Source of the DNA: Spirodela intermedia
Taxonomy: Eukaryota > Streptophyta > Magnoliopsida > Alismatales > Araceae
DNA: 64,000 bases
Reading direction: 5' to 3'
NCBI GenBank assembly: GCA_902729315.2
Contig: LR746279.1
Location: 2,136,501-2,200,500, forward strand
The position numbers and the translations under genes are program-made. Under the pieces are notes generated by a model. The model worked only from the letters and a program-made list of their open reading frames with translations, had not been told where the DNA came from and did not search any database. The first letter of the stretch is position 1; each line of letters begins with the position of its first letter. Shown here in pieces: positions 5,190 through 24,988 of the stretch.

Positions 5190-6190
5190 TTGTATCCATC
5201 ACACATCCTGTACCTTTGGTCCGTCTGGGCTGAGTTGAAACTGGGCTGCATCATGTGGGTCTACTGTCCGCAAACCTTGCAATGAGGTTCGCCAGTCCTG
5301 AGTACGAGCTACCCCCGGCGATCATCGATCTAACGGTTTCCTCCTTCACCTTCGCTGCCGCCGCCGCGACGGCTGCGCTCGCCATGAGCCCCCTGAGCCG
5401 CCGGCCGATCTCCTCCCCTTGAACCAGCACCCCTTCCCCTTGCCAGCTCCACTCCTTGGGCCACTCCCCTAGGCCGCTCTTCTCCATCACGCCGGCGTTC
5501 ATCCGTTGGTCGCCGTGCTGCGGCCAGGCCAGCACCCGTATCCCCCGCAGCGCCGCCTCCGTCACCGAGTTCCACCCGCAGTGGCTGACGAATCCCCCCA
5601 CGGCGGGGTGGGCGAGGATGGCCCCCTGGTCTACCCACCCCTTCACCACCCTCCCCCTCCCCTCCACCCGCCGGAGGAACCCATCTCCGAACAGCTCCTC
5701 CATGGCCTGCTCCTCTTGCTCCTCCTGCTCCTCCTTGTCGAGTTTCTTCGTCTTCACGACCCACAGGAACCGGCAGCCGCTGCTCTCTAGGCCCCCGGCC
5801 ATCTCCCGCGTCTGCTCCGGCGACAGCGCCGTGCGGCTGCCGAAGCTCACGTAGACGACGGAGCCAGTCGGCTGGCCGTCGAGCCACGCGAGCGAGTCGT
5901 CGCCGCCGCCCCCGGCGGAGTTGGATTGGGAGTGCTCCGGGAGGATCGGGCCGATGGCGACCACCGGCGGGAGGCCGGGGACTACCTTGCCGGTGTTGAG
6001 CGCCGCCAGAGTGGCCGGCTCGAGGGCCTCCCAGGTGTTGATGACGATACCATCTGCATGGACCATCACCTTCCCATTCTCTACGAACTGGGTCGTGAAG
6101 AGATTCCCCGGGTCACGGAGCGGCTGGGGGATGGAGCGCAGGGGGAGATCCTCCGCGAGCCCGGGGATCTTCAAGATCGCCGGCAGGGAG
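5190..6190. repeat. Gene-conversion tract shared with 12808-13808
   Basis: About 1 kb covering the 3' flank and the C-terminal two thirds of UGT copy 1 matches copy 2 with only about three differences that I can count, one of them changing Met to Lys. Upstream of 6190 the genes differ at many sites, and below 5190 the flanks are strongly diverged. Both edges are abrupt. Confidence 0.85.
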
Positions 6191-6693
6191 GCGGCGGAGA
6201 TTTGCGGGAAGGAGACGCATAGGGAGAGCATCTGGGCGGAGGAGGTGAAGAGGACGTAGGTTGGAAGGGGGATGGCGGCGGCGACGGGGAGCACGGCGGA
6301 GATGAGGGTGACGTCGCAGACGAGGGCTGACAGTCTAGGAGCGGCGGAGGAGAGGATTGGGCCGAGGAGGGAGGCGGAGCGGCGGATGGCCTCGAACTGG
6401 AGGAAGAAGGGGTCGGTGGAGGCCGCGGTGGAGGAGTCGAAGGGGAGGAGGGGGAACTCCAGCGGCCGTATGCCGGCGGAGGAGGCGATTAACTCAGCGA
6501 CATGACGGGCCTCGGCGGCAGAGACCAGCGGCGTGGGCGTGATGAAGGTGACGCCGCAGCCGCGCAAGGCCAACTCGGCGGCGAGGCGGATGAACGGGGT
6601 GAGGTGGCCCATGCCGGCGCTCGGTAGCAGGGCCACTTGGGGAGCTGCCGCCACCTCGCCGGAGACCACTACCGCCGCCGCCGGGGGAGACAT
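5251..6693 (-). CDS. UDP-glycosyltransferase, UGT708 C-glucosyltransferase type, copy 1
   Basis: This intact single-exon gene encodes 480 residues, the normal size for a plant family 1 UGT. The likely role is transfer of glucose from UDP-glucose onto a carbon of a 2-hydroxyflavanone or related phenolic in the cytosol. Visible marks: catalytic His30 in GMGHL; DPFF at 94-97; Asp127-Val128, the order of the Asp-Ile pair known from rice CGT rather than the Ile-Asp of O-glucosyltransferases; and a complete 44-residue PSPG box at about 353-396. The box begins WVDQ (UGT708-like, not the usual WAPQ), contains HCGWNS and ends GDQ, with the final Gln typical of glucose donors. From the stop to about codon 170 the DNA is nearly identical to copy 2. 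UGT membership is certain; C- rather than O-glycosylation is inferred from motifs. Confidence 0.9.
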   Translation of the reverse strand: MSPPAAAVVVSGEVAAAPQVALLPSAGMGHLTPFIRLAAELALRGCGVTFITPTPLVSAAEARHVAELIASSAGIRPLEFPLLPFDSSTAASTDPFFLQFEAIRRSASLLGPILSSAAPRLSALVCDVTLISAVLPVAAAIPLPTYVLFTSSAQMLSLCVSFPQISAASLPAILKIPGLAEDLPLRSIPQPLRDPGNLFTTQFVENGKVMVHADGIVINTWEALEPATLAALNTGKVVPGLPPVVAIGPILPEHSQSNSAGGGGDDSLAWLDGQPTGSVVYVSFGSRTALSPEQTREMAGGLESSGCRFLWVVKTKKLDKEEQEEQEEQAMEELFGDGFLRRVEGRGRVVKGWVDQGAILAHPAVGGFVSHCGWNSVTEAALRGIRVLAWPQHGDQRMNAGVMEKSGLGEWPKEWSWQGEGVLVQGEEIGRRLRGLMASAAVAAAAAKVKEETVRSMIAGGSSYSGLANLIARFADSRPT

Positions 6694-6975
6694 TGAACCT
6701 AACTCGGAGACTGGAAGGTAGGTAGCTCACCTCCCCCATTTGAAGATCCTGGCGGAGGTGAGCTCACCTTAGCATCACGGTGGGACCCACTTCATGCATT
6801 ACGATAAATTTCGATAAATTAAAAGAAATATTTTAAGACGAAAAATGAATTTCACGGTCGAAAGATTTTTCTGTCGCGATGGTCCAAGTGCAACCTCTGC
6901 GCGACTTTCCGCCGTCAGATGTGGTGAGTGAATCTCGACCGTCCAAGTCACCGACTTCAAATTGCACGTGGCATC
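6694..6975 (-). promoter_or_regulatory. Promoter/leader of UGT copy 1
   Basis: A block with 'ccgtcagat' followed by CCGTCC (6939-6944) is also present upstream of copies 2 and 3. A G-box CACGTG lies at 6965-6970. The plus-strand sequence GGTAGGT (6717-6723) is the complement of ACCTACC, the core bound by maize P1-type MYB factors; at 24 bp from the ATG it is probably in the leader. A block from about 6840 ('gaatttcacggtcgaaagat') is nearly identical to one upstream of copy 2. Confidence 0.5.
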
Positions 6976-6979
6976 CATA

Positions 6980-7099
6980 TTCCGCTCGTGTTCCTCATTC
7001 AGCCAGAGCATATTTTGTTCAGCAGCCACCAATGGGGATGGATTCTTTGTGAATTCTTATTTTGTCTTGCAGTAGATATATTGATATTGATTCTCTCAC

Positions 7100-7145
<46 letters not shown>

Positions 7146-7690
7146 TGGGGTTCTTTCAAGGCTCTCTTTTCACCACTAAAAACATCAAGACTATCTATGT
7201 TAGTTTGTCCCTCACTTGGTTAATTCTAGTCCAAGATCCTTCATACTGGAGTTTACTAGTTCTCTCATAAATATGCATTGATTATCATGAGATTAACCAC
7301 TTAATCACACAAGTTCTATCTTCTCAGAGGCTTCACCTTTTAATGGCTCAACCATGTTACTAGCACCTCGTGCTTTTTCCCAAATACCTCTCCCCTCACC
7401 ATCAAGATACATTCAGCCGTGATGGAGAGTGTCAACCTTTGAGATGGATGTTACTTGGATCACCAAAGTCGAATGAAAATTATATGCATCATTCTATATT
7501 TCATTGCAGCTCATAGTGATTGAATATTGAGAAGGATGCATAGATAATCATTTGAGAGATCTCCATTGTCTTCTCAAGTTTTTTCATTCGTAGTCCTCAT
7601 TCTCTAGTTGTTTTTTATTTTGAAAAGTGGTCAACCAGTTTTAAAAATCGTAATGTTGTCCCAAATACACGACAATGACCTTTGTCTTTT
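6980..7690. other. Non-coding stretch with a CT microsatellite
   Basis: A (CT)n run lies at about 7103-7142. The rest is AT-rich with no gene or element that I recognise. Confidence 0.5.
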
Positions 7691-8200
7691 TTATGATTTG
7701 AAACTCTTTATTATCGTCTGTTTAATTTGAAATTTAAATTGAAGATTCATCTTTTGTCAACATTTTTTTTTCTCTTGAGGTGAAGTCTAGATAAATATGT
7801 TTGATCTGTCGGCGTCTCCACATGAGTTGATGATGTGTCACCATCTAGATTCCAAGTTTGAGACTCATGCCTGACTTTGAGATTTCGTCAAGTTCTAAAT
7901 ATTTCATCACATGAGTTGATATTAAACTTTTTGAACTTATGTATAGAATCTATGATGCTACATTTTGAGGTTAGTTTCAACAAATAAGAAAAATTAATTA
8001 ATCTCAAAGATTAACTCTTTAGAATTGTGGCTTACATGTGACTTTGATTTTCATGAGTTTCTAAATATTTCCTCACATGAGTTGACATTAAACTTTTTAT
8101 ATTTATGTCTAGAATCTAGGATGTATTTTGAAGTTAGTTTCAGCATATATAAAAAAATAATTAATCTCAATGATTAACTCGTTGAATTTACTTATTAAAT
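7690..8200. repeat. Dispersed repeat, inverted relative to about 15640-16010
   Basis: The stretch with 'ttaattgaagat'-like, 'gaggtgaagtctagataaat' and 'tgtgtcaccatc' matches the reverse complement of about 15840-16000. Inside it, a block of about 170 bp ('gagttgatattaaactttt', 'gttagtttcaac') occurs twice in a row (about 7900-8030 and 8070-8195). I read it as a decayed transposable-element part, family unknown. Confidence 0.65.
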
Positions 8201-8459
8201 ATAGGATCACGATATCATTAAATCTTATATATATATATATATATGTTAAATTCATATTTAACACAAACTCTTATTATATATAAAATTTAATAAATATTCA
8301 ATAAATAATTTTTCATATTGTAATATCAAAACTAAGGGCATCAACAAGATATAGTGTGGGAGAGATAAATCAACTTCTCCATAAAATGTTGATACCTCAA
8401 TATACCTATAAGACTACTCTTTTCTACATCATTGAGTTTATGATTCAAATCTATCAGAG

Positions 8460-8870
8460 TACTCATATGTTTACAACATAATGTTTAAGTGTCCTTGAAG
8501 AGGTCAACAATATATTTCTTTTGATAAGATAAAATCTTTTTCTTAAACTAGGTTACGTCAATGCTAAGGAAATATTTCAACTTTACTAATATGTCTATAT
8601 CAAATTCGTTTTTCAAACACTCACTAAAATATTTTTTATTCTCATTATTTCATGTAACTATTATATCATCCACATAGACGAGAAGAGTTATAGTTCCTCA
8701 TGAAGGTGGATGTTTAAGAAACAAGGTGTGTTATCTATTACTAGGTTTATATCTTACCTCTCTCACCACTTTTGAAAATATCTCAATCCATACTCTTGAA
8801 GAGTGATTGCTTAAGTCTATATAAAACCCTCTTTAATTTACATATAATGTCTTGCTTAGAGCTGATTTCA
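8460..8870 (-). mobile_element. Decayed Ty1/copia reverse-transcriptase fragment
   Basis: On the minus strand, with stops and shifts, the translation gives a degraded YGLKQS-type block (RLKQSLFKS), then LVYVDDI, which is the YVDD catalytic box of Ty1/copia reverse transcriptase, then KYIVDLFKDT, matching the conserved block downstream of the RT core. It is a dead fragment; no LTRs assigned. A better preserved relative lies at 15020-15370 in the same orientation. Confidence 0.8.
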
Positions 8871-8938
8871 TATTCTTGTAGAACATTCATAGGTACGTAC
8901 TAAGGAGAGTAAGATTAAGATGATATCCATTGTATATT

Positions 8939-9960
8939 TGATATGGTTGGGTATAAGACCATTAGGCCTAACTTATAATTGTGAGAGAAAATAGGCCGAG
9001 TACTAGACAGAGGAGGGTCAGCCCACAAGCATATCTAGTAATGTGTCGATGAGACATCATGTATAAAAGAAGATTGAAAAGAGGAAAAAGCCCCCCCCAT
9101 AAAAAGATTAAGATTAACCAATTGAGAGTCAATGGTCTCTCAGACAACACCTTCATACACTTTGGATTTTTGTGCCCTCATCAATTTGATCTTCCCTTCT
9201 TCCAACAATTTATTTTTCCTTTTACATTCAAGATTGTTGCAACTTAATATTAGAGCCACCATGGTGCCAAGGGGAACAACAATCATTTGGAGGTGAGGAG
9301 GAGGCCTGAGTGTCATATATTAACGTGTTGAATAGATGGAAGATAACCTCAGCCACCTTCTCAACCAACTAATACTATGGATGGATCGAATGGAGACCAA
9401 GTTCATTTTTTCTGACAAGGGGGAGATAGAAGTATGCACTAATGTGACTAGGCGCGACATCAAGACCAGAAGCACCAATCACAAAAGTTAAAACAATGAC
9501 TCACTTGAAAATTCCCATCTTCAACAAAAAGGATATTTGGCATAATGGATGTTTCATTTGGAGTTTTATTTCAGGATGTATAGAGCTATAGAAGTTGACA
9601 AGATTCTAATGGGAATCATGAAAATGAGTGGATAAAGCTTATCATGGTACTTGTGGACGTTGGAGTTGTTTCTACTCAAGGGCTGTGAATTTCGGAATTC
9701 AATTGATACAACATTTATAGAGCACTACTTCATGTAATGTTTACTAGTAGTCCCTCAGTATTAAGCAAAAATAGACTATAAGTGAGTACGATAAATAGTT
9801 TGAAGTACTTTCAACCTTTATTTCAAACATTCCAGCACCCATACTAGAGAACACATTTCTCAATGGGTTAAGAGAAGATTTTATAGCTGAAGTTAAAATA
9901 TTCATGCCAAACTATCTTTGAGACTAATGAACCTAACTCAAATGACAGAGGAGTGTGTAT
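8939..9960 (+). mobile_element. Truncated Ty3/gypsy-like retrotransposon: LTR, primer-binding site, partial gag
   Basis: A putative LTR runs from TG at about 8939 to CA at about 9241, with a TATAAAA box at about 9061. It is followed by 'acttaatattagagcc' (9242-9257), a decayed form of the tRNA-Met primer site usually reading TGGTATCAGAGC. A gag remnant follows, interrupted by stops; around 9830-9920 it translates as IPAPILENTFLNGLREDF and then AEVKIF, typical of plant gypsy gag. The element ends near 9960 with no pol. LTR borders are my estimate and no second LTR was found. Confidence 0.7.
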
Positions 9961-10775
9961 CCTAACAATGGGATGCATGTAGGTCAGAGACATTGCGAGT
10001 GACAATATAGATCCATATTAATAATTATATTTCACACGATCCTTTTCTTGTGAAAGTAAAAGGTTATGTCAACAACATGTATCTTCCTAATGGTCCTTCC
10101 AACCTTCTGAATATTTGAGTCTTCACAATCGACTCCCTAAAATTATCTAAGTTTCACATATATCCACATGACTACTTACATTTAAACTTTCCTAAATTTC
10201 CTTCATTAGTTTAAACCCTATAATTTTTTTTAAAAATAATTAATCAGATGTATGATTCTTTTTATATCATCCACCAGGTCAATTGAATTCCTCTCTCCAC
10301 GTTGTCATAGTATAATTATTAAAAAAATCCTAAAAAATGTTCTTAGTTAATTAAAGTCACAAACTACTTAGTCTTTATCCTCTTGAGCTCAAGTCTCTAT
10401 CACTATGCAAAATAGTAGATTTTTTGCATTTTTCTTTAGTGGAAAATCTTAATATTTTTTGTGTTCTAGAAACATTTAGCATCCTATTAGAGTTAGTCAT
10501 TATGAATAAAATAATAACATTTATCCATAAAGTAATTTTATTTTAAGAACTATACCAGGTTTTCCTATTTCCGATTAAACAATATAACCTTTTATAGGGT
10601 GATTTTTGGGTAAATAAACTCATATGGTCTCTACTATACACATGATCTTGAGGCTTGGCCCGCCATCTCCTTCTAGAAGGTCCACATGTCATCAATTTAG
10701 TTAATGTTCTTGTTGCCTTCCGGTGACACAAATGATGTTATTGTCCCTCTTGTCTCCTTTGACCATGCCATGCTT

Positions 10776-10779
<4 letters not shown>

Positions 10780-10821
<42 letters not shown>
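10780..10821. repeat. (CT)n microsatellite
   Basis: An uninterrupted CT run sits at the position equivalent to the 3395-3645 minisatellite of unit 1. Confidence 0.95.
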
Positions 10822-10824
<3 letters not shown>

Positions 10825-10827
<3 letters not shown>

Positions 10828-12800
10828 CTTATCTGTCCATCTCATCCTATCCAAGATTAGCCTAAACCTTCTAATGACATTAAACTTCTAATAACAAAAT
10901 TTTACAATATCCATTTAATATTTTTTCATGTGATGCTCTAATGTAATAGACATACCAAAATAATTTTCCATGAGATGCTCTAATGTAATAGACAAACCAA
11001 AATAGAGTTAATCATATGATCTTGTAATGTCTAACATAAGTTCATTTTCTTAGCAGAGTTTTCAGACTTATTAGAATAATTAGTTGTTCCCTATCTTAAA
11101 TGTGGTAAGTTATCAAACATATTATTTATCAGTATTTAATGTAATTAAAGTTTTTGAATTTTATTTTTATGATTTTAATGGTGAAAATAATTTTATTGTA
11201 TATTTATATCTATTGAATGATTTTTTTTCTGGCATGCATATTTAATATTTCTCATTTGAAAATTTTATTTATTTTTAGGAATTTCGTTAGAGCAGATTAA
11301 ATACAAGTTATTATATAATTTATCTATGAGTAAATTGGTGAATGTATCCATTAGTTACTAGGGATCTTTTTACTATCAAGATGGTTTTATCGTGCGACTA
11401 GAAAAATATTCGTCCCTGTTAAACACCTTAGGGCTCAATCCCTATAGTGACAAGTAAACATTGGGGATGTATCCCTAAAAAGGGTAGTCTTTGGGGGCAG
11501 AAGCTAATTAACTCATTTAAAAATATGTGCTGTAAAATGTGATTAATTTAAAACTTCCAGCTAACCAAAAATAATAGTAGCACATTAATGTTTTTGATAG
11601 TGTCACCAATGACAAATAGATTGAATTACATAGAGTACTGCTGAATATGAAGAATATATTAATTAATTCATAAAATAACTATTAAATACGTTTAATTTTT
11701 AAATGTTTTGAAATAATGTGCACCCTAAACCCTAAAAATGGATTCAACTAGACAAATAAGTGGCTAATGAATAAAAAACCTATAAGATTATAATTTTTTA
11801 TAATAAACGTTTTTCACTAATTTGATTTCCAAGTTATATATACTCCAATCATAAATAACTTTTGACAAGAAATGCATTTAATTTGAGAATACCTGATTGT
11901 AAAATTTTAAGAATAAAAAATAAATTTGATGAATAATAGAGTGATCATGATGACCAAGTAATAGTTCTTGTTCCATGAGTTTTGGGGCATCATAAAATAA
12001 GCAACGGAGAGCATGCATGCCTATTGTGGAAGATCTTCATTGAGGCCATCGATTGCTACTATACTCCTAAAATACGATCTTACTATTTAAAGTTTCACTC
12101 CCAACACCATTAGACCAGCTGTTACATGAAAGAACTTGTTCATTAATAGTAATTTTATGAGATGTAATGCACACCAAAAAGATAACATAATTTTTCAGTC
12201 ATCTTCAGATCAACAGAAATTAGGAATGCAAATCCATTCAAAGTGGATTAGAGTTTGACTCAAGAAGTAGTCCGCCCAAGGTCAACAAGTTGTACATTGA
12301 ATGCATATATTAGGAAAAAGCCTTCATTTGGGATGATTTGGGTCAATCATCATAAAAAACCATGAGTTATTAAGTATCACAAGTGACACATGAAAACTTG
12401 ATGAAAAGATGATTTGATCCAGTTGAGAAGAACCCAAATCGTGTGGGGTTGAAATCATGTCCTTAAATACTGAAAAAACATGATTTTTGTTGAAGTTATC
12501 TCATCTAGAATCCATAGAAAGAAGAAAACTCTGACACGATAAAATAAGGGTTCCTTAAGTCCACAGAGATGGTAGAGTCCACCAGTAAAAGAGATAACCT
12601 AAAAAATGAATAATCTAATTCATAATATTTATTGGCTTCTCTTCGTCCACAAAGAGTCACTTTAAATAGCTCACAATCAATTATTTGGGCACTTAAAATT
12701 TAAAGTTCAAATAAATTTCGAAATGAATAAAATAGAAAAAGGAAAATAAAAAAGGGAAAACTAAATTTGGACACATTTAAGATGCATCCTAAATTTAGGT
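10825..12800. other. AT-rich spacer downstream of UGT copy 2
   Basis: No coding region seen. It is homologous in patches to the spacers of units 1 and 3. Short blocks such as 'ggggatgtatccctaaaaag' recur at 20347 in unit 3. Confidence 0.6.
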
Positions 12801-12807
12801 TATTAGC

Positions 12808-13808
12808 TTGCATCCATCACACATCCTGTACCTTCGGTCCGTCTGGGCTGAGTTGAAACTGGGCTGCATCATGTGGGTCTACTGTCCGCAAACCTTGCAA
12901 TGAGGTTCGCCAGTCCTGAGTACGAGCTACCCCCGGCGATCTTCGATCTAACGGTTTCCTCCTTCACCTTCGCTGCCGCCGCCGCGACGGCTGCGCTCGC
13001 CATGAGCCCCCTGAGCCGCCGGCCGATCTCCTCCCCTTGAACCAGCACCCCTTCCCCTTGCCAGCTCCACTCCTTGGGCCACTCCCCTAGGCCGCTCTTC
13101 TCCATCACGCCGGCGTTCATCCGTTGGTCGCCGTGCTGCGGCCAGGCCAGCACCCGTATCCCCCGCAGCGCCGCCTCCGTCACCGAGTTCCACCCGCAGT
13201 GGCTGACGAATCCCCCCACGGCGGGGTGGGCGAGGATGGCCCCCTGGTCTACCCACCCCTTCACCACCCTCCCCCTCCCCTCCACCCGCCGGAGGAACCC
13301 ATCTCCGAACAGCTCCTCCATGGCCTGCTCCTCTTGCTCCTCCTGCTCCTCCTTGTCGAGTTTCTTCGTCTTCACGACCCACAGGAACCGGCAGCCGCTG
13401 CTCTCTAGGCCCCCGGCCATCTCCCGCGTCTGCTCCGGCGACAGCGCCGTGCGGCTGCCGAAGCTCACGTAGACGACGGAACCAGTCGGCTGGCCGTCGA
13501 GCCACGCGAGCGAGTCGTCGCCGCCGCCCCCGGCGGAGTTGGATTGGGAGTGCTCCGGGAGGATCGGGCCGATGGCGACCACCGGCGGGAGGCCGGGGAC
13601 TACCTTGCCGGTGTTGAGCGCCGCCAGAGTGGCCGGCTCGAGGGCCTCCCAGGTGTTGATGACGATACCATCTGCATGGACCATCACCTTCCCATTCTCT
13701 ACGAACTGGGTCGTGAAGAGATTCCCCGGGTCGCGGAGCGGCTGGGGGATGGAGCGCAGGGGGAGATCCTCCGCGAGCCCGGGGATCTTCAAGATCGCCG
13801 GCAGGGAG
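12808..13808. repeat. Gene-conversion tract shared with 5190-6190
   Basis: This is the partner of the tract in copy 1: about 1 kb with about three mismatches, abrupt edges on both sides, and the same coverage of 3' flank and C-terminal coding part. Confidence 0.85.
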
Positions 13809-14308
13809 GCGCCGGCGATTTGCGGGAAGGAGACGCATAGGGAGAGCATCTGGGCGGAGGAGGTGAAGAGGACGTAGGTTGGAAGGGGGACGGCGGCGGC
13901 GACGGGGAGCACGGCGGAGGTGAGGGTGACATCGCAGATGAGCGCTGACAGTCGAGGAGCGGCGGAGGAGAGGAGCGGCCCGAGGAGTGCGGCGGAGCGG
14001 CGGATGGCCTCGAACTGGAGGAAGAAGGGGTCGGTGGAGGCCGCGGTGGAGGAATCGAAGGGGAGGAGGGGGAACTCCAGCGGCCGTATGCCGGCGGAGG
14101 AGGCGACTAAGTCGGCGACATGGCGGGCCTCGGCGCCGGAGATCACCGGCGTGGGCGTGATGAAAGTGACGCCACAGCCGCGCGAGGCCAGTTCGGCGGC
14201 GAGGCGGATGAACGGGATGAGGTGGCCCATGCCGGAGCTCGGTAGCAGGGCCACTTGGGGAGCTGCCGCCACCTCGCCGGAGACCACTACCGCCGCCGGC
14301 CGAGACAT
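12869..14308 (-). CDS. UDP-glycosyltransferase, UGT708 C-glucosyltransferase type, copy 2
   Basis: This intact single-exon gene encodes 479 residues. It carries the family set: GMGHL with the catalytic His, STDPFF, the Asp-Val pair of the CDV motif, and a PSPG box at about 352-395 running from WVDQ through HCGWNS to HGDQ. The predicted reaction is as for copy 1. The gene is a mosaic. The C-terminal two thirds match copy 1 almost perfectly (one residue differs in about 310), while the N-terminal third is closer to copy 3, sharing for example RRSAALLGPLLSS and ALICDV. The ATG at 14308 fits the N-terminal length of copy 1. Acceptor specificity is set largely by the N-terminal half, so copies 1 and 2 may differ there despite their identical donor halves. 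I am sure of the family and less so of the substrate. Confidence 0.9.
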   Translation of the reverse strand: MSRPAAVVVSGEVAAAPQVALLPSSGMGHLIPFIRLAAELASRGCGVTFITPTPVISGAEARHVADLVASSAGIRPLEFPLLPFDSSTAASTDPFFLQFEAIRRSAALLGPLLSSAAPRLSALICDVTLTSAVLPVAAAVPLPTYVLFTSSAQMLSLCVSFPQIAGASLPAILKIPGLAEDLPLRSIPQPLRDPGNLFTTQFVENGKVMVHADGIVINTWEALEPATLAALNTGKVVPGLPPVVAIGPILPEHSQSNSAGGGGDDSLAWLDGQPTGSVVYVSFGSRTALSPEQTREMAGGLESSGCRFLWVVKTKKLDKEEQEEQEEQAMEELFGDGFLRRVEGRGRVVKGWVDQGAILAHPAVGGFVSHCGWNSVTEAALRGIRVLAWPQHGDQRMNAGVMEKSGLGEWPKEWSWQGEGVLVQGEEIGRRLRGLMASAAVAAAAAKVKEETVRSKIAGGSSYSGLANLIARFADSRPT

Positions 14309-14860
14309 GGATCCGAATTCGGAGACTGGAAGGTAGGGGGATCTGCGGGAGGGGAGGGGGGCCGTGGTGGTACGCTGCCAGAGGAGTTACCTCCACGATT
14401 GGAATCGCCCGGTGGAGGTGAGGTCACCGACGCGAGCCGCAATCACTACGAAGGGACCCACCTCGTCCATTTCGTATCGATTTTTTTGTGAAAATTATGA
14501 CCATTTTGGCTTCGTTCCAGGTTGGGAATTTCGGGAAATTAAAAAATATTATTTTATGACGAAAATTGAATTTCACGGTCGAAAGATTTTTCTGTCGCGA
14601 TGGTCCCACTGCAACCTCTGCGTGACTTTTCCGCCGTCAGATTTCGTCATTGAATCCCCACCGTCCAAGTCACAAGGCTCAGATCGCACGGGGCTCTACT
14701 CCGCTCGAGCTCATATGGCCAGAGTTCATCGTTTTCCCCCGCATCAACCAACGGCCTTCGTGCACGTATTAAAGTGACCGAGTTTCTAGAAGAGGCGTCG
14801 ATTGTTCTAGAAGTCGACCCCATCACCCTGCTTCTTCACGATACCTACCGTACATACCTT
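14309..14860 (-). promoter_or_regulatory. Promoter/leader of UGT copy 2
   Basis: The block 'gaatttcacggtcgaaagat' is shared with copy 1. 'aaaattatgaccattttgg' (about 14498) is shared with copy 3. CCGTCC lies at 14661-14666 after a 'ccgtcagat' like that of copy 1. ACCTACC, the P1-type MYB core, is at 14843-14849, about 535 bp from the ATG. Confidence 0.5.
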
Positions 14861-14882
14861 CCACTCTGCTAGTATCGGTCTA

Positions 14883-15019: not shown

Positions 15020-15370
15020 TTTCCAGTGTCCTTGAAGAGGTCAATTATATATTCTATTGATAAATAAAACTTATTTTCTTAGAGTATGCTACCTCAAAGC
15101 CAATGAAATATTTAAACTTTATTATTCTTACTCAAATTATTTTATTAAAAACTTACTCAAATATTCTTTTCATTCTCATGATTTCTTGTCATTATTATTT
15201 CATCCACATAAATGAGATGATTTGTAATTTCTTATGATGGTGAATGTTTAACAACCAATGTTTTACTCTATTAATAGCTTTATATCAGATCTCTCTCATC
15301 ACTTTTTCAAACCTCTGAAACCATGCTTTTGGTGATTGCTTGAGTCCATATAAAATCATGCTTAATTTAT
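15020..15370 (-). mobile_element. Decayed Ty1/copia reverse-transcriptase fragment
   Basis: The minus strand translates to LYGLKQSPKAWFQRFEKV (about 15300-15358), a textbook Ty1/copia RT block. After indels comes a YVDD-box variant reading IYVDEI (about 15200), then IDLFKDT-like sequence near 15030. It abuts the place where homology to the P450 promoter of unit 3 ends (about 15010), so an element of this type, or a rearrangement involving it, may have removed the P450 of unit 2. Confidence 0.85.
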
Positions 15371-15639
15371 TAATACCCTTGGTTTTAATGCTACAATAGT
15401 AAATTTATTTATTGAATACTTATTGAATATTCATCGAACTTTGTGAGAGCCTATGTAAAGGTTTAATATTTCTAAGAAGTATTCAATATGTATAATTTTA
15501 ATGCTCTCATTATTCCATGGCTAACAGACAAATCCTTGAGACCTTTATATATTGAAACTAATGCAGCATTCTATAGTATGTATAAAAGTATAGAAAATTA
15601 AGTGAGAACTCACCTAATAGAGCATCTAAAAAGTTATCA

Positions 15640-16010
15640 AAATATCAAAGTGATTGACAAATATATAAGTTAGAATTTGGACAATGATAAGTTGGAAGCT
15701 TTGACGAAGAAACACCTAGAAATTCACAAGATATCAAGTAAGAGTGTCAAAATTGCTTGTAAAACTCAAACCTTGACTCTAGACAATGACAAGCCCGAAA
15801 CTTTGGTGAGAAGATATCTGAAAAATCATTAAAAGGAAGAGATCATCATCACATAATTTGGATGGTGACACATTCACAGATTACATGGAGATAATGATGG
15901 ATGAAACAAACTTATTTAGACTTGACCTCAACAAAATTTTGTTCATTGACAAGAATCACATCTTCAATTAAAACTTGAAGTAAAACAGACAAGAAAATAT
16001 ATAGCTTTGA
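15640..16010. repeat. Dispersed repeat, inverted relative to 7690-8200
   Basis: Its reverse complement matches about 7690-7990. Two internal sub-copies are visible ('gacaatgataagttggaag' and 'gacaatgacaagcccgaaac'), as in the partner. Family unknown. Confidence 0.65.
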
Positions 16011-16249
16011 ATCACGAGGCAAACATAGTTGGTGCATATTTTAGACAGCTAGAGGATTTTTGAAATTGTGTAACTATTTTTTAAGATAAGAAATGACTAG
16101 AGAGTATTAAAGATAAAATGAAAAAGCTTGTGAAGAGAATAGAACTAATTCCATTGTCTATCTATATTCTAACGAATATCCGTTACTCTTTAAAAAGGTT
16201 TAGCCATCATGATCTTCGATAAAGAACATAATAATACATCACATATATT

Positions 16250-16297
16250 GACCCACCTCTCTTGACCATGCCATGCTTCTGACCCACCTCTCTTGAC

Positions 16298-16361
<64 letters not shown>

Positions 16362-17000
16362 CCCCCCCCCCCTAGGCCAAGTGTTCATGGGCCTTCTAGT
16401 TTTGTCTCTCTCTCCCCATCTATCCCGTCTTATCTCATTTGAGATGGTCCAAATCTTCTGATCACATTAATCCGCTGAGAAGAACATTTTACAATACCTA
16501 TTTAATAATTTAACATGACATGCTCAAATGATAATGGATAGATCAAAATAGATTAAATTTTATGATCTTGAAATGTCTAACATAATTTCATTTTCTCAAT
16601 TGGATTTTCGAATTTATTAGAATCATTACTAGTTCCTTACCTAAAATGTGGCATGTTCCCAAAAATATTAGTCATCAACTTTTAATCTAATTAAAAGAAT
16701 CTAATTTAATTTTCTCTGATTTTAACATAAGAATTTTTTGTATATTTTATATCTCATTGAATGATTTTTTCAAGTGGGCATATTTAATAGTGCTCGTTCA
16801 ACCTTTTATTTATTTTAGGAATTTAATTAGTGCAGATTAAATCTGGGTTATTATATAATTTAATGAATACTTATTATTCTGTATACATCAATTGGTGAAT
16901 ATATCCTTTACTTTCTTGGTACCCTTTTACCGTTAAGATGGTATTTTAGTCGGCTAGAAGAATATTTGCCCCCCCCCCAAAACCCCTTGGGCTAATTTCT
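16250..17000. repeat. Partial tandem unit (spacer part), with CT/C microsatellite
   Basis: It starts with 'gaccatgccatgcttc', as in units 2 and 3. A long CT run at about 16288-16358 is followed by a C-run. Then come the 'catttgagatggtcc', 'gttccttacctaaaatgtgg' and 'aaccccttgggct' blocks of the unit spacer. It stops near 17000, where unrelated sequence begins. It belongs with the broken UGT at 17789-18285 as a fourth, degenerate unit. Confidence 0.75.
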
Positions 17001-17159
17001 GAGGTTTCCAAGGACCATCAATTATGTTTTTACAACAGTGCACTCTCCCTCAGCCTGTCCTATAGAGTCTGTTTTCTATGTTCGTGGTTCAGTATTCTGG
17101 TGTGCGAGGCAAAGAGTAACAAGACAAATCTATCCGCAACTATGTGGTTGAAGCATAAT

Positions 17160-17590
17160 ACTTCTATTCAGACAGAAAAAAAAAAAGAAACGTTGTCCAA
17201 TTAGTTGAAAGGAAAGGCATGCAATATCAATGCCAAGCTACTTCTACAACAAGATAAGACATCCATTCATGCTGGAGAGGAGTACATTTCATTAAACATT
17301 CAGAAAGCAAAACTGTTTATCAGAGGTGAAGGAAAATGAATTACAATCAAGAAGGATAGACTCTAAAAATAACAATGGGGGAACTCTCTGCTGCCTGCCT
17401 GGTTTCCTCTGATCTAAGTAAACTGTTTGCTTTCTGGCAATGAGCTAGCTTACCCCTGATTGCTTAAGGCTAGAAATGAGGATCTTATTACAACGAGGAT
17501 GCTAGAAAAAAGCTGTTAAGATGATTGAAAAAATTAAACATCGAGAACGCAACATTCATAACAAGAATTGCGTAGATCTACAGGAGAATG
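17160..17590. repeat. Duplicated copy of 660-1000 with a ~110 bp extra segment
   Basis: Near-identical to the left-edge segment. The additional segment (about 17383-17488, from 'tgggggaactctc' to 'gaggatctt') interrupts the match; I cannot tell insertion here from deletion in the other copy. The stretch 17590-17788 that follows matches nothing else in the window. Confidence 0.85.
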
Positions 17591-17788
17591 AAAGAAGCTA
17601 CGTCAGCACTCCAGTCGTACTCCATTCTACCCATTGGTCTGTCCAGGAAGGACTGCTCGGTTCAAATTCGCTGCCGTCTCAGTGGATCTGTTGTGCTTTA
17701 TATGTTGTAATCTGTTCAAGTTCCTGCCTTATGGACAAGGTATGTTTAGTGGGGTTACTCTGACTTCAACGAAAGCTCGTATTCAGAT

Positions 17789-18285
17789 AACCTTGCCCGA
17801 GTTGACCGCCGCCAGAGTGACCTGCTCGAGGGCCTCCCAGGTGTTGATGACGATCCCGTCTGCATGGGGCATCACCTTCCCGTTCTCCACGAGCTGAGTC
17901 GTGAAGAGATTCCCCGGGTCGCGGAGCGGCCGCTGGACAGAGCGCAGGGGGAGATCCTCCGCTAGCCCAGGTCGGGGACCTTTAAGGTCGCCGGCAGGGA
18001 GGCGCCGGCGATTTGCGGGAAGGAGACGCATAGGGAGAACATCTGGGCGGAGGAGGTGAAGAGGACGTAGGTTGGAAGGGGGACGGCGGCGGCGACGGGG
18101 AGCACGGCGGAGATGAGGCTGAGCGCAGACAGTCGAGGAGCGGCGGAGGAGAGGAGCGGCCCGAGTGCGGCGTGGCGGCGGATGGGCTCGAACTGGAGGA
18201 AGAAGCGGTCGGTGGAGGCCGCGGAGTCAAAGGGGAGCAGGGGGAACTCCAGGGGACGTGTCGGCGGAGGAGTCGATTAAGTGAT
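17789..18285 (-). pseudogene. Truncated UGT708-type pseudogene
   Basis: The minus strand reads as the middle N-terminal part of the UGT, about residues 60 to 225 of copy 3. The C-terminal part, including the whole PSPG box, is missing, and the start is lost beyond 18285. Compared with copy 3 there is a 5 bp insertion near 17970 (frameshift), a 12 bp deletion near 18125, and several small deletions up to 18240. It shares the MPHADG variant with copy 3, where copies 1 and 2 read MVHADG, so it is closer to copy 3. It cannot encode an active enzyme. Confidence 0.9.
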
Positions 18286-18415
18286 ACGGTTGGCCAGCGG
18301 GATCTGGTTGGCGGTCGGTGTATGCTTTCAAACTGCTTGTGGGTCCGGTTGGCCAGTGGTCACTTGATGTGATTCTAACCCACTAGTGGGCTTGGCTGGG
18401 TAGCGAGTCCCTTCT

Positions 18416-18417
<2 letters not shown>

Positions 18418-18511
<94 letters not shown>
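18418..18511. repeat. (TA)n microsatellite
   Basis: More than 40 uninterrupted TA units lie just beyond the truncated UGT pseudogene and next to a dispersed AT-rich repeat. Such tracts are fragile and may mark the breakpoint. Confidence 0.95.
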
Positions 18512-18514
<3 letters not shown>

Positions 18515-18725
18515 TTTATCTACAAAATATGAGTATAAAAATTATATTAATTTACATAAAATCAGATAATTAGTTAAAAAATCATATTAATCAACTAAAA
18601 ATATTTTTTTATCAATTTTATATAAATATAAGTTTATTTATCATGATTTAAAACTTAAAATATATTATTCATAAATTATTAATTCATAATAATGAAGACT
18701 TATCACTAACTCAAATGATAGAATA
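18515..18725. repeat. Dispersed AT-rich repeat, inverted relative to 27440-27640
   Basis: The reverse complement, including 'aagttttaaatcatgataaa' and 'taaacttatattt', matches 27450-27640 closely over about 190 bp. It is probably the end of a transposable element; the family is not recognised. Confidence 0.75.
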
Positions 18726-21700
18726 ATATATATCCAGATAATATAATGTATGTGACTTAAGAAAACTAGAAGAGATGACATAAATTTACTCTAAATAATT
18801 ATATTTCACATATATTCCTTTTCTTGTGACAGTCAAAGGTTCCATCAATAACCCATCTCTTCCTTAAGATGGTTCCTTCAACCTTCAAAATATTTGACCA
18901 TTGCTAGTTGACTCCTTAAGAGTATTTATTTTTCCCTTATATCTACCTAGCAACTTTATTTAAACTATCCAACAATTCAATAACTAATTTAAACCCTTTT
19001 TTTAAAAAAAATAGTTAATTAGATATATGATTTTTTATATATCTTCCATTAGGCCAATTGAATTCATGTCTCTGCCTCATTGTGGTATATTACTCAAAAA
19101 TCCTTAAAAACGTTTTGAGTTAGTTAAACTCACAAAGTACTTATTCTTCATCTTCTTCAACTATGTCTTTATCACTATGTGAAATAATAAATTTTTGGCA
19201 ATTTACATCTTAGGAAAATTTAATCTTTTTTATGTTGTGGAAACTTTTCTCATACAATTAGATTTAGTCCTTACTAGTAAAAGTATAAAATTTAGCCATA
19301 GAATAATTTTATATTAACAAAATATTATTTAAGCTTTGAATGCCAAGTATTCCTATTTATGATGATAAAAAATATAACATTTTGCAGGATGATTTTGTAG
19401 CTACATAAACTCATAGGGTCTCTACAATACACTCACAATCTTCACCCTTGTCCCAGCATCTCCTCCTAGAAGCTCCACATCTTGTCAATCAATCAATGTT
19501 CTTGTTGGCTTCCAATGAAGCAAATGATGTTATTGCCCCTCATATCTCTCTCTTTTGACTGTGCCATGCTTCCCTCCCATCTCTCTTGACCACTCTCTCT
19601 CTCTCTCTCTCCCCCCCCCCCCTGTGAGAAGAAAACCTTCTCCCTTTCTTTCTCTATCCATATTTCTCTCTCTCTCCCTCCCTCCCTCCCCCCTTGGGCT
19701 GAGTGTTATTGAGCTTTCTAGTTCTGTCCTTCTCTCTACCCATTTGTCCCTTTCATCTCATTTGAGACTGGCATAGACCTTTTGATCACATTAAGATATT
19801 GAGAAGAAAATTTTACAATGCCTATTTAATATTTTTCTGTGAGATGCTCTAGTAATAATAGACAAACCAAAAAATAGAATGAATCATATGATCTTGAAAG
19901 AAATAAGTTCATCTTTATAGTAGAATTTCTTAGACTAATTAGTAATTCCCTACCTTAAATGTGGTAAATTATTGAACATATTTCTTATCGGTATTTAAAC
20001 TAATTAAAAAGTTCGAATTTAACTCTTTTTTATCATTTTAACAATTAAATCAACATTTTTTGTATATTTTATATCTAATTGAATGATTATTTTCTGACAA
20101 GCATATTTAATATTGCTCGTTAGAAAATTTTATTCATTATAGGAATTTAATTAGTGCAGATTAAATATGGTTTATGTTATAATTTAACGAATATTTATTA
20201 TATGTATATGTCTATTGGTGAATGTATCCCTTAGTTACTTTGTATCCTTTATTATGGTCAACTAGAAGAATATTTGTTCCCACACTAAACCCCTTGGGGC
20301 TAAAACCTGAGGTTTCCAAGGAGCTGTACCGACGTGTTTAAACATTGGGGACGTATCCCTAAAAAGGGTACTTTTTGGGGAAAGAAAACTAATTAACCCA
20401 TTTAAAAAGACTCTTTAAAGCTTTCAACTAACCAAAATTAATCATAACACACTAAAGTTTTATGATAGTGTGTCCAATTAAAAAGAACTACTAAATAATT
20501 CTGAAAATACGTTAATTAATTCAAAAAATAACTACTAAATACGTTTAATTTGTTTTAAATGTTAAATATTTTTTTATTTACCCCAAAAATTGATTCAATT
20601 AGACAAATGAGTGGCCAATGACTTAAAAAACCTATAAGATCATAAATTTCTTATTTAAAAACATTTTCACTAATTTGACTTCGGAATAATATACTCCAGT
20701 CAAGATAACTATTGACCAGAAATGAATTTAATTTTATAATATGCAGTCATAAATTTTAAAAATAAATTTGAGGATTAGCACACTCGTAACGATTACCAAG
20801 TAATAGTTCTTGATCCATGAATTTTGGAGCATCATAAAATAGGCAAGGGAGGCCATCAATGTCTACAATGGAAGATCTACATTGGGGCCATCCATTGCTA
20901 TTATACTGCTAAAATACGATTTTACGATTTATTCATTAATAATGATTTTACGAGATTTAATCTACACGAAAAGATAACTCAAATTTTGGGCCGCCTTCGG
21001 ATCAGCAGGGATCAGGCAAGCGAATCCATTCAGACTGGATTGGAGTTTGACCCAACACCCGTATCAACGGGCGCCTCCTGGGCCCCGTCAACTGGCCAAA
21101 CGTCAATGGTCTCATGCAGGATGTACGGTCGAAGGTCAACGGGCCGTACATCGTACGCCAATATCAGGAAAAGACTTCATTTGGGATGATCTGGGCCGAT
21201 CGCCGGATTATGTAGGTCTGCTCTTCGTGAACCTCGCAATGAGGCTCTCCAGTCCACCGGCGGCCGCCGCCCGAACGGTCTCATCCTTCACCTTCGCAGC
21301 AGCGGCGGCTGGGCTCGCCATGAACCTCCTTAGCCGCCGGCCGATCTCCTCCCCTTGAACCAGCACCCTCTCTCCTTCCCAACCCCACTCCATGGGCCAT
21401 TCTCCGAGGCCGCTCTTCTCCACCACGCCGGCGTTGATCCGCTGGTCGCCCAGCTGGGGCCAGGCCAGCACCCGTATCCCCCGCAGTGCCGCCTCCGTCA
21501 CCGAGTTCCACCCACAGTGGCTGACGAAGCCCCCCACGGCGGGGTGGGTTAGGATGGCCCCCTGGTCGACCCACCCCTTCACCACCCTCCCCCTCCCCTC
21601 CACCCGCCGGAGGAACCCATCTCCGAACAGCTCCTCCATGGCCTGCTCCTCCTGCTCTTCCTTGTCAAGCTTCTTCGTCTTCACGACCCACAGGAACTGG

Positions 21701-23310
21701 CAACCGCTGCTCTCCAAGCCCGCGGCCAGTTCCCGCGTCTGCTCCGGCGACAGCGCCGTACGGCTGCCGAAGCTCAAGTAGACGACGGAACCAGTCGGCT
21801 GGCCGTCGAGCCACGCGAGCGAGTCTTCGTCGCCGCCGCCAGAGTTGGGTTGGGAGTGCTCCGGGAGGAGCGGGCCGATGGCGACCACCGGCGGGAGGCC
21901 GGGGACTACCTTGCCGGTGTTGAGCGCCGCCAGAGTGGCCGGCTCGAGGGCCTCCCAGGTGTTGATGACAATGCCGTCTGCATGGGGCATCACCTTCCCG
22001 TTCTCCACGAACTGGGTCGTGAAGAGATTCCCCGGGTCACGGAGCGGCCGCGGGATGGAGCGCAGGGGGAGATCCTCCGCTAGCCCGGGGATCTTCAAGA
22101 TCGCCGGCAGGGAGGCGGCGGCGATTTGCGGGAAGGAGACGCATAGGGAGAGCATCTTGGCGGAGGAGGTGAAGAGGACGTAGGTTGGAAGGGGGACGGC
22201 GGCGGCGACGGGGAGCACGGCAGAGATGAGGCTGACGTCGCAGATGAGCGCTGACAGTCGAGGAGCGGCGGAGGAGAGGAGCGGCCCGAGGAGTGCGGCG
22301 GAGCGGCGGATGGCCTCGAACTGGAGGAAGAAGGGGTCGGTGGAGGCCGCGGAGGAGGAGTCGAAGGGGAGAAGGGGGAACTCCAGCGGCCGAACGCCGT
22401 CGGAGGAGGCGACTAAGTCGGAGACATGGCGGGCCTCGGCGGCGGAGACCACCGGCGTGGGCGTGATGAAAGTGACGCCGCAGCCGCGCGAGGCCAGCGC
22501 GGCGGCGAGCCGGAGGAACGGCGTGAGGTGGCCCATGCCAGCGCTTGTTAGCAGGGCCACTTGGGGAGCAGCCGCCGCCGCCGGTGGAGTCATGGATCCG
22601 ATCTCGGAGTGTGTTGAAGGTGGGGAGCTCTGCGGGAGGACAGGGCGCTGGGGTCGTGACGCGGCCGGTGGAGATACCTCCCTCCCATTTGAAGCGCCCG
22701 GTGGAGGTAAGCTCACTGACCCGTCCAATCACCACATGGGACCCGTGTCGCCCATATTTTCATAATATGATAAGTTTCGTAGCTATATTTTTCTGAAAAT
22801 TATGACCATTTTGGGAATGTTCCGGATTGGAAATCTCGATCAATCTTTAAGACAGGTGGGACAGATATTCACATGCTGTGTAATCTTACCGGCAGCTCTA
22901 CCTACCTTCTGTGCTGTCAGATTTCCCACCGTCCAATCTTCTGTGCGGATTGGTAATCTGCACCGTCCAATTCACCTACTTCAGACAGGTTTCCGGGCGC
23001 CCTGCCCTGATTCCGCTCAGGCCCGGGTCAGATTCATTAGATAACAGCCTGTTGAGTTTGAGCGGACGAGCTTCCTCCACGTTTCTGTTCCCCAGGCCCT
23101 CCATCGAGTTTCTAGAACAGTTGGCTGTTGTTCTAGAACCCGAAACTAACTTCATACTTAACCCCAAAACTTTGCGATAATTACCATATTATGGTCACGA
23201 AAGGCGAATACAATGCAGTAAAGGGTGCTAGTTTGAGGGGAGGAAATATGTCAAATGACTTGTTGTTATTTGACGAGGAGTGAGAAGGGTTGAAGGGTGG
23301 CAAACTCTCT
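18700..23310. repeat. Tandem segmental duplication, unit 3 (UGT copy 3 plus P450 promoter)
   Basis: The same block order as units 1 and 2, with the UGT at 21208-22593. This unit is the only one in which the region beyond the UGT promoter still leads into an intact P450. A CT run with a C-run and one minisatellite copy lies at about 19590-19690. Confidence 0.75.
21208..22593 (-). CDS. UDP-glycosyltransferase, UGT708 C-glucosyltransferase type, copy 3
   Basis: This intact single-exon gene encodes 461 residues from the ATG at 22593. The open frame continues upstream to about 22728 but has no ATG there, and the 22593 start aligns with those of copies 1 and 2. Catalytic His22 lies in GMGHL. STDPFF and CDV (Asp then Val) follow, and the PSPG box is at about 341-384, from WVDQ through HCGWNS to LGDQ. 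The predicted role is C-glucosylation of a flavonoid precursor with UDP-glucose. It differs from copies 1 and 2 by a shorter N terminus, a shorter C-terminal Ala-rich stretch and scattered substitutions. It is divergently paired with the P450 at 23366, 772 bp away. I consider it the best candidate for the ancestral functional member of the cluster. Confidence 0.9.
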   Translation of the reverse strand: MTPPAAAAAPQVALLTSAGMGHLTPFLRLAAALASRGCGVTFITPTPVVSAAEARHVSDLVASSDGVRPLEFPLLPFDSSSAASTDPFFLQFEAIRRSAALLGPLLSSAAPRLSALICDVSLISAVLPVAAAVPLPTYVLFTSSAKMLSLCVSFPQIAAASLPAILKIPGLAEDLPLRSIPRPLRDPGNLFTTQFVENGKVMPHADGIVINTWEALEPATLAALNTGKVVPGLPPVVAIGPLLPEHSQPNSGGGDEDSLAWLDGQPTGSVVYLSFGSRTALSPEQTRELAAGLESSGCQFLWVVKTKKLDKEEQEEQAMEELFGDGFLRRVEGRGRVVKGWVDQGAILTHPAVGGFVSHCGWNSVTEAALRGIRVLAWPQLGDQRINAGVVEKSGLGEWPMEWGWEGERVLVQGEEIGRRLRRFMASPAAAAAKVKDETVRAAAAGGLESLIARFTKSRPT

Positions 23311-23365
23311 TTATAGAGAGAAAGAGAGAGGTGTTAGGACCAAGGGCGGTAGCAAGCCGGAGACA
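22594..23365. promoter_or_regulatory. Divergent promoter between UGT copy 3 and the CYP93G-like P450
   Basis: The 772 bp between the two start codons holds ACCTACC (22900-22906), the core of P1-type MYB sites, and two CCGTCC motifs (22929-22934 and 22963-22968), the first preceded by 'gtcagat' as in the other copies. On the P450 side TATAGA lies at 23312-23317, so transcription should start near 23340. On the UGT side an AATATAG-like box lies at about 22784-22790. Two TTCTAGAA-type palindromes (about 23110 and 23133) are also conserved in unit 2. Co-regulation is inferred. Confidence 0.6.
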
Positions 23366-24988
23366 ATGGAGGTGATCTCCTTCTCGTACGCCGTCCCGCT
23401 GGTAGTCCTGGCGGCGACCGTCGTCTTCCTGGTCGTTAAGCTCGCTGACCGGCCATTCAATGGGCGTCGGCCACCGGGGCCGGCGGCGCTGCCAATCATC
23501 GGGCACCTACATCTGCTCGATCGGAAGGTTCACCAGTCGTTCGACAAGCTCTGTAAGAAGTATGGGCCGGTCATCAGTCTCCGCTTCGGCTCCACCCACG
23601 CCATCGTTGTCTCCACTGTGGAGGCGGCGGCGGAGTTCTTCAAGAACCACGACCTGGTCTTCGGGAACCGCCCCCAGTCGCGGGCCTCCCGCCGGTTCGC
23701 TTACGACTCCGCCGGCTTTGCGTTCGCGCCCTATGGTGCCTACTGGCGTTTCGTGAAGAAGCTGGCGATAACGGAGCTGCTCAGCGCGCGGACGGTGGAG
23801 CAGCTCCTGCCGCTGCGGCGCCAGGAGCTGGTGGACCTCCTGGGAAGGCTACTGCAGGCGGCGGAGCGGAAGGTGAAGGTGGACGTGAGTCACGAGCTGA
23901 TCAAGATGACCAACAACACAGTCGCGCGCATGGCCACGGGGCGGACCTGCGCGCCGGCGGAGGGGGAGAGCGGAGACCCGGAGGAATCGATGAAGCTGGT
24001 GAAGCAGGTGGCGGAGCTGATAGGATCCTTCAACCTTAGCGACCACGTATGGCTGCCCCGAGGGTGGGATCTGCAGGGGTGCAACCGCCGCATCGAGGAC
24101 GTCCTCCACCGGTACGACACCATGATGGAGAGGATCATCAAGCAGAAGGAGGCGACGCGGGGGGCGAGGAGGGGCGGCGGCGCCACCCTGGATCTACTGG
24201 ACATCCTTCTCGACTTGTCGGAGAACAAGGGCGCCAACATCAAGCTCACCAGGGAGAACATCAAGGGGATTATTCTGGTTAGCGGCCCTCGCTATATTGC
24301 ATAGTATGTATAAAGTTTTACTACTACCATATAACACTAAAGCTACTCTTCCGTGCAGGACATCTTAGTGGCGGGATCAGACTCGTCGGCCGTGACGTTG
24401 GAGTGGGCGCTGACGGAGCTCATCAACCACCCGGAGATGCTTCAGAAAGCTCGGGAGGAGGTGGACAGGGTGGTCGGCCGGGAGAGACTGGTGGAGGAAG
24501 CTGACATCTCCGGGCTCCCCTACGTGCAGGCGGTGATCAGGGAGACCCTCCGTCTCCACCCGGCTGCGGCCTTCGTCTCCCGCGAGTCCCGCAAGGACAC
24601 CACCATCTATGGCTACAACATCCCCGCAGGGACCAGCCTCTTTGTCAACATCTGGTCCCTGGGGAAGGATCCAAGCCAGTGGGACGACCCGCTGGAGTTC
24701 CGCCCGGAGAGGTTCTTCTCCAGTGCTGACGATGGCCAGGAGCTGAAGCAGCAGCAGCTCCGCTCCCTGCCGTTCGGCGGCGGGCGGCGGATCTGCCCCG
24801 GGGCTGGGCTGGCACAGCAGGTGGTGCACACGGCTCTGACGGCGCTGTTGCAGTGCTTCGACTGGCAACACGTCGGGAGGCAGGACCTGGAGGAGGGGAT
24901 TGGGCTTGTCGTTGCCAGGGCTAATCCACTGGTCTGCGTCCCCGTGGCCCGGTCCAATCCAATGCCGGCCAACCGTATGGGATTCTAG
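23366..24988 (+). CDS. Cytochrome P450, CYP93G-like (flavanone 2-hydroxylase or flavone synthase II type)
   Basis: There are two exons, 23366-24277 and 24359-24988, with an 81 bp GT-AG intron in phase 0; the protein has 513 residues. An N-terminal membrane anchor (about 5-25) precedes the PPGP hinge (36-39). The I-helix motif is AGSDSS (309-314), ExxR is ETLR (366-369), PERF is at 420-423, and the haem loop FGGGRRICPG spans 443-452 with Cys450 as ligand. The stretch around SAGFAFAPYG and TVEQL, the GWDLQG motif and the AGSD start of the I-helix motif recall rice CYP93G proteins. That subfamily converts flavanones on the ER membrane to 2-hydroxyflavanones or flavones, and 2-hydroxyflavanone is the substrate of UGT708 enzymes. 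The threonine usual in the I-helix is Ser here. Alternatives are CYP93A/B or the sister family CYP712. The P450 call is certain, CYP93 likely, the exact reaction open. Confidence 0.88.

Follow-up and report, generated by a model that had tools for sequence, protein, structure and literature searches.

We find that a 64,000-nucleotide stretch of the Spirodela intermedia genome (hereafter the window; contig C16, positions 2136501-2200500, within a genome of 136,496,439 bases on 32 contigs) holds three intact UGT708-type C-glycosyltransferase (CGT) genes, UGT1 to UGT3, next to an intact cytochrome P450 gene of the CYP93 family. We consider it likely (probability of about 0.7) that this locus is a small metabolic gene cluster that serves flavone C-glucoside synthesis, acting through C-2 hydroxylation of naringenin or eriodictyol and C-glucosylation of the A ring towards vitexin- and orientin-type products. 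This reading is carried by the gene structures, by the families and clades of the encoded proteins, by genome searches in which no other intact UGT708-type gene appeared and by signs of the same linkage in taro and Wolffia.

The UGT708 array and the adjoining P450 gene

The three UDP-glycosyltransferase (UGT) genes are intronless and lie on the minus strand at 5251..6693 (UGT1, 480 amino acids), 12869..14308 (UGT2, 479 amino acids, 96% identical to UGT1 and with a near-identical 3' tract) and 21208..22593 (UGT3, 461 amino acids). The P450 gene lies on the plus strand and consists of an exon of 304 codons (23366..24277), a single 81-bp GT-AG intron in phase 0 (24278..24358) and a second exon that encodes the ExxR, PERF and FGGGRRICPG motifs (24359..24988). 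UGT3 and the P450 gene are divergent and stand head to head, their ATGs 772 bp apart in continuous sequence (22594..23365). A preliminary description of this DNA had claimed three intact UGTs and one intact P450, and this inventory proved correct, as the open reading frames (ORFs) are uninterrupted and carry the PF00201 (UGTs) and PF00067 (both P450 exons) domains.

In the route that we propose, the P450 would most likely hydroxylate naringenin and eriodictyol at C-2, the 2-hydroxyflavanone would open to its dibenzoylmethane form, the three UGTs would attach C-linked glucose to the A ring and dehydration would yield vitexin- and orientin-type flavone C-glucosides, with the head-to-head UGT3-P450 pair as the core and the other UGTs as tandem copies. 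The chemistry that leads from 2-hydroxyflavanones to C-glucosides is established for grasses, and the preliminary description had invoked the grass-type pathway of flavanone 2-hydroxylase (F2H) and UGT708; the families and clades fit that proposal, but the host is a duckweed and not a grass. Vitexin and orientin have been reported from the other Spirodela species, S. polyrhiza (PMC8525856; PMC10851477), for which a review table gives the 8-C-glucosides and 7-O-glucosides of apigenin and luteolin and no di-C-glycoside, and the same table gives luteolin 8-C-glucoside-6-C-xyloside and -rhamnoside for Landoltia, Lemna gibba and Wolffia borealis (PMC8525856). The S. polyrhiza profile fits mono-C-glucosylation genes without an intact CGTb in Spirodela, a correlation that draws its chemistry from another species.

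Among solved structures, the best match of UGT2 is LpCGTa of Landoltia (6lg1, 655 bits), followed by LpCGTb and UGT708A6, and the three UGTs are 65-67% identical to LpCGTa. LpCGTa and LpCGTb, which bear these molecule names in the PDB, were reportedly described in an (iso)schaftoside study. In a maximum-likelihood tree built from 51 rows (47 taken from the 120 matches listed, the three window UGTs and one outgroup from the same genome), the UGTs join Landoltia CGTa and Wolffia (97/88) and then Arisaema CGTa, Colocasia and Landoltia CGTb (97/99), the last on a long branch whose position is unsure. The phylogeny places them inside the UGT708 C-glycosyltransferase clade, to which they had earlier been assigned by their motifs, and alignment and a motif scan confirmed each of these motifs in all three proteins: the WVDQ-type plant secondary product glycosyltransferase (PSPG) box, DPFF and an Asp-Val pair.

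A W-V-[D/E]-Q box, the DPF motif and an Asp-[Val/Ile] pair are taken as marks of C-transfer. We scanned 15 other UGT frames of at least 150 amino acids from the same genome, chosen by the box pattern at loci L001-L020 (L004 gave no frame and L016 is a remnant), and found the WVDQ box in none of them versus all three window UGTs. DPFF near residue 100 was likewise present in 3/3 window UGTs and 0/15 others, four loci (L005-L008, frames of 267-330 amino acids) looking too short to include the region and the letters DPF occurring elsewhere in L013 and L014. The Asp-[Val/Ile] pair is found in all 13 aligned CGT rows. Listed relatives carry the names 2-hydroxyflavanone C-glucosyltransferase (P0029; P0009 with the suffix '-like') and C-arabinosyltransferase (P0020), and the database names of LpCGTa and Arisaema CGTa are visible as far as '2-hydr(ox)'. 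From sequence, we infer that the three UGTs would C-glucosylate 2-hydroxyflavanones.

A genome search with UGT2, in which 80 of 80 candidates were scored, revealed no further intact UGT708-type gene: besides the three UGTs and two remnants, the next match by score is 38% identical, with short partial matches of up to 54%. When LpCGTb was the query, the search detected no CGTb elsewhere in the genome and returned the same three genes at 53-54%, followed by a match at 37%. Thus, the intact UGT708-type genes found in the genome all reside in this array. The two remnants, found by similarity search, were absent from the preliminary description, as was the 772-bp intergenic region. The first, on the minus strand between UGT2 and UGT3 (about 17783..18276), is a UGT pseudogene that retains only query residues 67-240 or so, in two frames, with both ends gone. 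The second (33376..33597, minus strand) is a UGT708-type C-terminus whose best match among 11 proteins compared is Landoltia CGTb (45%, E 1e-20), followed by a Wolffia CGTa-type protein (48%, E 6e-17); its sequence may be of CGTb type, which we take as a lead and no more.

UGT1 and UGT2 differ at 3/885 bases in their last 295 codons (synonymous divergence, dS, 0.009) versus 31/552 bases in their first 184 codons (dS 0.10), and share an exact tract of 538 bases, while identity in the flanks is 65-84% per 100 columns soon past the stop codon and 73-92% across 340 bases upstream. Between UGT2 and UGT3 the divergence runs the other way, with a dS of 0.09 in the first part and 0.25 in the second, so that the genes look like mosaics. 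The pattern points to an array that is being homogenised, recent gene conversion having apparently acted on what we presume to be the donor-binding half, with differences remaining in the presumed acceptor-binding half.

Within the 772-bp region, a candidate shared promoter, the 245 bp adjoining UGT3 match the upstream region of UGT2 at 70%, and a genome search found no second copy of the rest. UGT3 and the P450 gene are probably co-regulated from this region, and co-expression of the genes at the locus would be expected.

Two repeats also lie in or near the array. A perfect TA repeat of 46.5 copies (18419-18511) and the 5' end of the UGT pseudogene are separated by 143 bp, and a 197-bp sequence occurs at 676-872 and 17179-17375 with 98% identity, these being the only two copies found by genome search; it may have flanked an array unit that has since been lost.

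Placement of the P450 within CYP93

The P450 protein (513 amino acids) matches a public entry, 'unnamed protein product [Spirodela intermedia]' (P0121), at 100% identity. We assigned proteins to CYP93 by an identity of at least 40% to members and by the conserved single intron. The P450 shows 43.5-55.1% identity to CYP93G-type, CYP93A-type and five other monocot CYP93 proteins, and its intron, after codon 304, occupies the same place as in a CYP93A-side paralogue on contig C4, whose exons match residues 11-303 and 305-506. Trees of 193, 53 and 35 proteins all placed the P450 in CYP93, as the preliminary description had supposed, in a group with Colocasia and Wolffia proteins beside Dioscorea and on the monocot CYP93G side, with support of 98, 100/98 and 100/99, respectively. 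The largest tree was built without three fused or overlong proteins of at least 600 amino acids (P0125, P0127 and P0241), and the rows of the two smaller ones were hand-picked from 190 listed P450s. In these trees CYP93B is represented only by isoflavone synthase (CYP93C), and neither CYP93F nor CYP93J, a monocot subfamily of unknown function (PMC5070762), was identified in the sample.

Two other placements were rejected. Membership in CYP712 or CYP705 finds no echo in the matches that name a numbered plant CYP family, all of which are CYP93 (one match is named only generically as 'CYP2 subfamily'), nor in the trees, which group the P450 with CYP93, no named CYP712 or CYP705 protein being among those compared. 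A position inside the grass F2H subclade was rejected at p 2.9e-5, as expected if the split between CYP93G1 and CYP93G2 is specific to grasses.

The mean identity of the P450 is 46.7% to 43 grass CYP93G1-type proteins, 47.5% to 16 CYP93G2-type proteins and 48.9% to 7 CYP93A proteins; its identity to five non-grass monocot relatives is at most 55.1%. By convention, a CYP subfamily is delimited at 55% identity (PMC5070762), and the P450 falls short of this value for CYP93G. A genome search with the P450 (84 of 216 candidates scored) returned no other gene of the CYP93G side, the next intact two-exon match showing 51% and 42% identity by exon. Two CYP93-like paralogues in the same genome, one on C4 and one on C16 about 600 kb away, group with monocot CYP93A (98/97). 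On C4, two CYP93A-side P450 genes (G000:C4:5517220-5518891 and 5527887-5529558) lie about 10 kb apart in opposite orientation with equal scores exon by exon, possibly as the result of a recent inverted duplication.

Possible linkage in aroids and rival explanations

In taro (Colocasia), the related P450 (Taro_053736, P0124) and UGT (Taro_053737, P0006) carry consecutive locus tags and both lie on contigs of size 32,746. In Wolffia, UGT P0004 and P450 P0123 both lie on contigs of size 16,397,393, which is weak evidence because a contig of this length is of chromosome size. Taken together, a CYP93G-side P450 and a UGT708 are found on equal-size contigs in 3/3 aroid species (Spirodela, Colocasia and, for one of its two P450s, Wolffia), and, among the 18 further monocot species in which a pairing could be attempted, in one (Stipagrostis, on an 11.5-Mb scaffold). 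The remaining 17 lack the pairing: Dioscorea zingiberensis, D. sansibarensis, Acorus calamus, Phoenix, Ananas, Rhynchospora pubera, Urochloa humidicola, U. decumbens, Oryza meyeriana, Setaria viridis, Miscanthus, Puccinellia, Alopecurus, Aristida, Dichanthelium, Triticum and Paspalum vaginatum. This tally was made by eye on the best 120 rows per search, with one longest contig per row and equal contig size standing for the same contig. Colocasia falls outside the duckweeds in both gene trees, and P450-UGT708 linkage may be conserved in aroids. The duckweed line parted from the remaining aroids some 100 million years ago. It is conceivable, if rather doubtful, that an F2H-CGT pair with a shared promoter has stayed linked in aroids from a time before duckweeds and taro diverged, and that a CGTb-type gene for a second step has decayed in Spirodela to the C-terminal scrap 8.4 kb beyond the P450 gene. 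Such decay would account for the listing of mono-C-glucosides, and of no di-C-glycosides, for the genus, and the history as a whole would assign an enzymatic function to an unnamed CYP93 lineage that branched early.

Several observations weigh against a flavone C-glucoside cluster. The P450 branches before the split between grass CYP93G1 (flavone synthase II, FNSII) and CYP93G2 (F2H), and constraining the aroid proteins to the CYP93A side lowers the log-likelihood by only 9.1 units, which the approximately unbiased (AU) test does not reject (p 0.153). At the 23 sites that separate the two grass groups, the P450 has the CYP93G1 state at 7, the CYP93G2 state at 2 and neither at 14. The linkage in taro and Wolffia is read from locus tags and equal contig sizes and not from DNA, gene order or orientation, and a UGT708 and a CYP93A-type P450 also occur on equal-size contigs in Cocos and Tasmannia. 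MYB AC-element matches in the window number 24 versus 23.05 expected by chance, and were therefore rejected as a sign of co-regulation; the one ACCTACC between UGT3 and the P450 gene (22900-22906) was given no weight. Finally, the review table lists S. intermedia for anthocyanin only (PMC8525856). Because the CYP93A side costs so little and the identities to CYP93G1, CYP93G2 and CYP93A proteins are about equal, we call the P450 a CYP93 on the CYP93G side and not a CYP93G. As a description of its clade in the best trees the earlier label 'CYP93G-like' is sound, but it does not hold as a subfamily name in the strict sense.

The distribution of states at the diagnostic sites also means that sequence does not choose F2H over FNSII. 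Grass CYP93G enzymes include F2H (CYP93G2 and CYP93G5) as well as FNSII (CYP93G1), all acting on flavanones (PMC5070762), and the P450 belongs to a clade that includes both. Were it mainly an FNSII, it would supply free flavones for O-glucosides, and the CGTs would be fed by leaked 2-hydroxyflavanone intermediate or by another enzyme; the excess of CYP93G1 states would agree with this, as would its being the sole CYP93G-side gene found among the candidates scored when S. polyrhiza produces 7-O-glucosides of apigenin and luteolin as well (PMC8525856). We nevertheless regard this as unlikely, as the adjoining UGTs come from a C-glycosyltransferase group whose relatives bear 2-hydroxyflavanone names, and the seven CYP93A proteins display a similar excess (8-9 CYP93G1 versus 4-5 CYP93G2 states), so that it is largely ancestral and a vote by these sites is uninformative. 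The P450 may also combine F2H and FNSII activities. Less probable still is that its substrate is a different one, as for some enzymes of CYP93A and CYP93E, and that it sits beside the UGTs by coincidence. The AU result leaves room for this, and its identity to CYP93A proteins is no lower than that to CYP93G1 and CYP93G2, but the best-tree support for the CYP93G side is 100/99, the adjacency seems to be repeated in taro, with an equal-size contig in Wolffia, and chance adjacency comes to roughly 1 in 10,000. This last figure is post hoc arithmetic: with 21,594 gene models in S. intermedia 8410 (PMC7645714), two named genes would be adjacent by chance in about 2 in 21,593 cases. A wrong joining of the genes in the one assembly that was read is hardly credible, since the 772 bp between UGT3 and the P450 gene are continuous sequence, the taro genes bear neighbouring tags and a near-identical P450 is present on a second, differently sized S. 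intermedia contig (P0122, 4,044,921, versus P0121, 4,082,963), UGT neighbours not being seen there. The formation of C-glucosides from 2-hydroxyflavanones remains our preferred reading of the locus.

A cluster extending beyond these genes was rejected on the ORFs read to either side. On the left, the 10 kb upstream of the array (L049, one of four upstream stretches, with ORFs of at least 110 amino acids considered) holds an ORF with a WEMBL (weak chloroplast movement) domain at L049:6435-8327. On the right, large ORFs occupy 37959-49961 (ORFs of at least 150 amino acids were considered past 50 kb), of which the one at 41964-49961 carries DUF908, DUF913, UBA and UBM domains and is presumably a UPL-type HECT ubiquitin ligase, and the one at 37959-39089 has no Pfam match. 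Genome searches placed chalcone synthase (CHS) and chalcone isomerase (CHI) away from the locus, with CHI on C6, a CHI-like match on C12 and full matches to the CHS-type domain at three places (C5, C7 and C2).

Comparison with known systems

Non-homologous genes for consecutive steps at one locus, together with their co-expression, define a plant metabolic gene cluster, and the window contains such genes in a presumed order of steps; two consecutive steps towards flavone C-glucosides look physically linked. Flavonoid pathway genes are usually scattered, and a reactive 2-hydroxyflavanone must pass from the P450 to the C-glucosyltransferase. If the divergent pair has been kept from taro to duckweed, it would be an old plant gene cluster and would make it possible to test directly whether linkage is favoured by an unstable intermediate; the UGT/P450 pair would also be a compact gene set for making vitexin and orientin. 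Titles and abstract openings in the open PubMed Central literature (at most 20 of up to 901 matches per search; subscription papers and preprints lie outside this scope) name no CYP93-UGT708 or F2H-CGT cluster.

The closest known enzymes, Landoltia punctata LpCGTa (PDB 6lg1) and Arisaema CGTa, belong to the same clade as the Spirodela UGTs at 63-67% identity and have the DPFF motif, the Asp-Val pair and the WVDQ box in common with them, but they are known here as single enzymes, whereas the Spirodela UGTs are known within a gene array. Rice CYP93G2 (F2H) and UGT708A/OsCGT represent the same two enzyme families and presumably the same consecutive steps; in indica rice, chromosome 6 carries a tandem run of six CGT genes, but the parts of that report consulted describe no F2H-CGT neighbourhood (PMC8196924). 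Moreover, the F2H and FNSII groups are sisters within grasses, whereas the duckweed P450 branches earlier. The licorice isoflavonoid cluster (Glycyrrhiza C1514) is likewise a flavonoid-branch metabolic cluster in a plant, but serves the isoflavone and not the C-glycosylflavone branch, and UGT708 has 0 occurrences in the main text of its description (PMC9763095). The momilactone and thalianol clusters, as described, resemble the Spirodela locus in that non-homologous genes of one pathway adjoin; what sets the Spirodela locus apart is that it would join two consecutive flavonoid steps, whose genes are apparently neighbours in taro as well.

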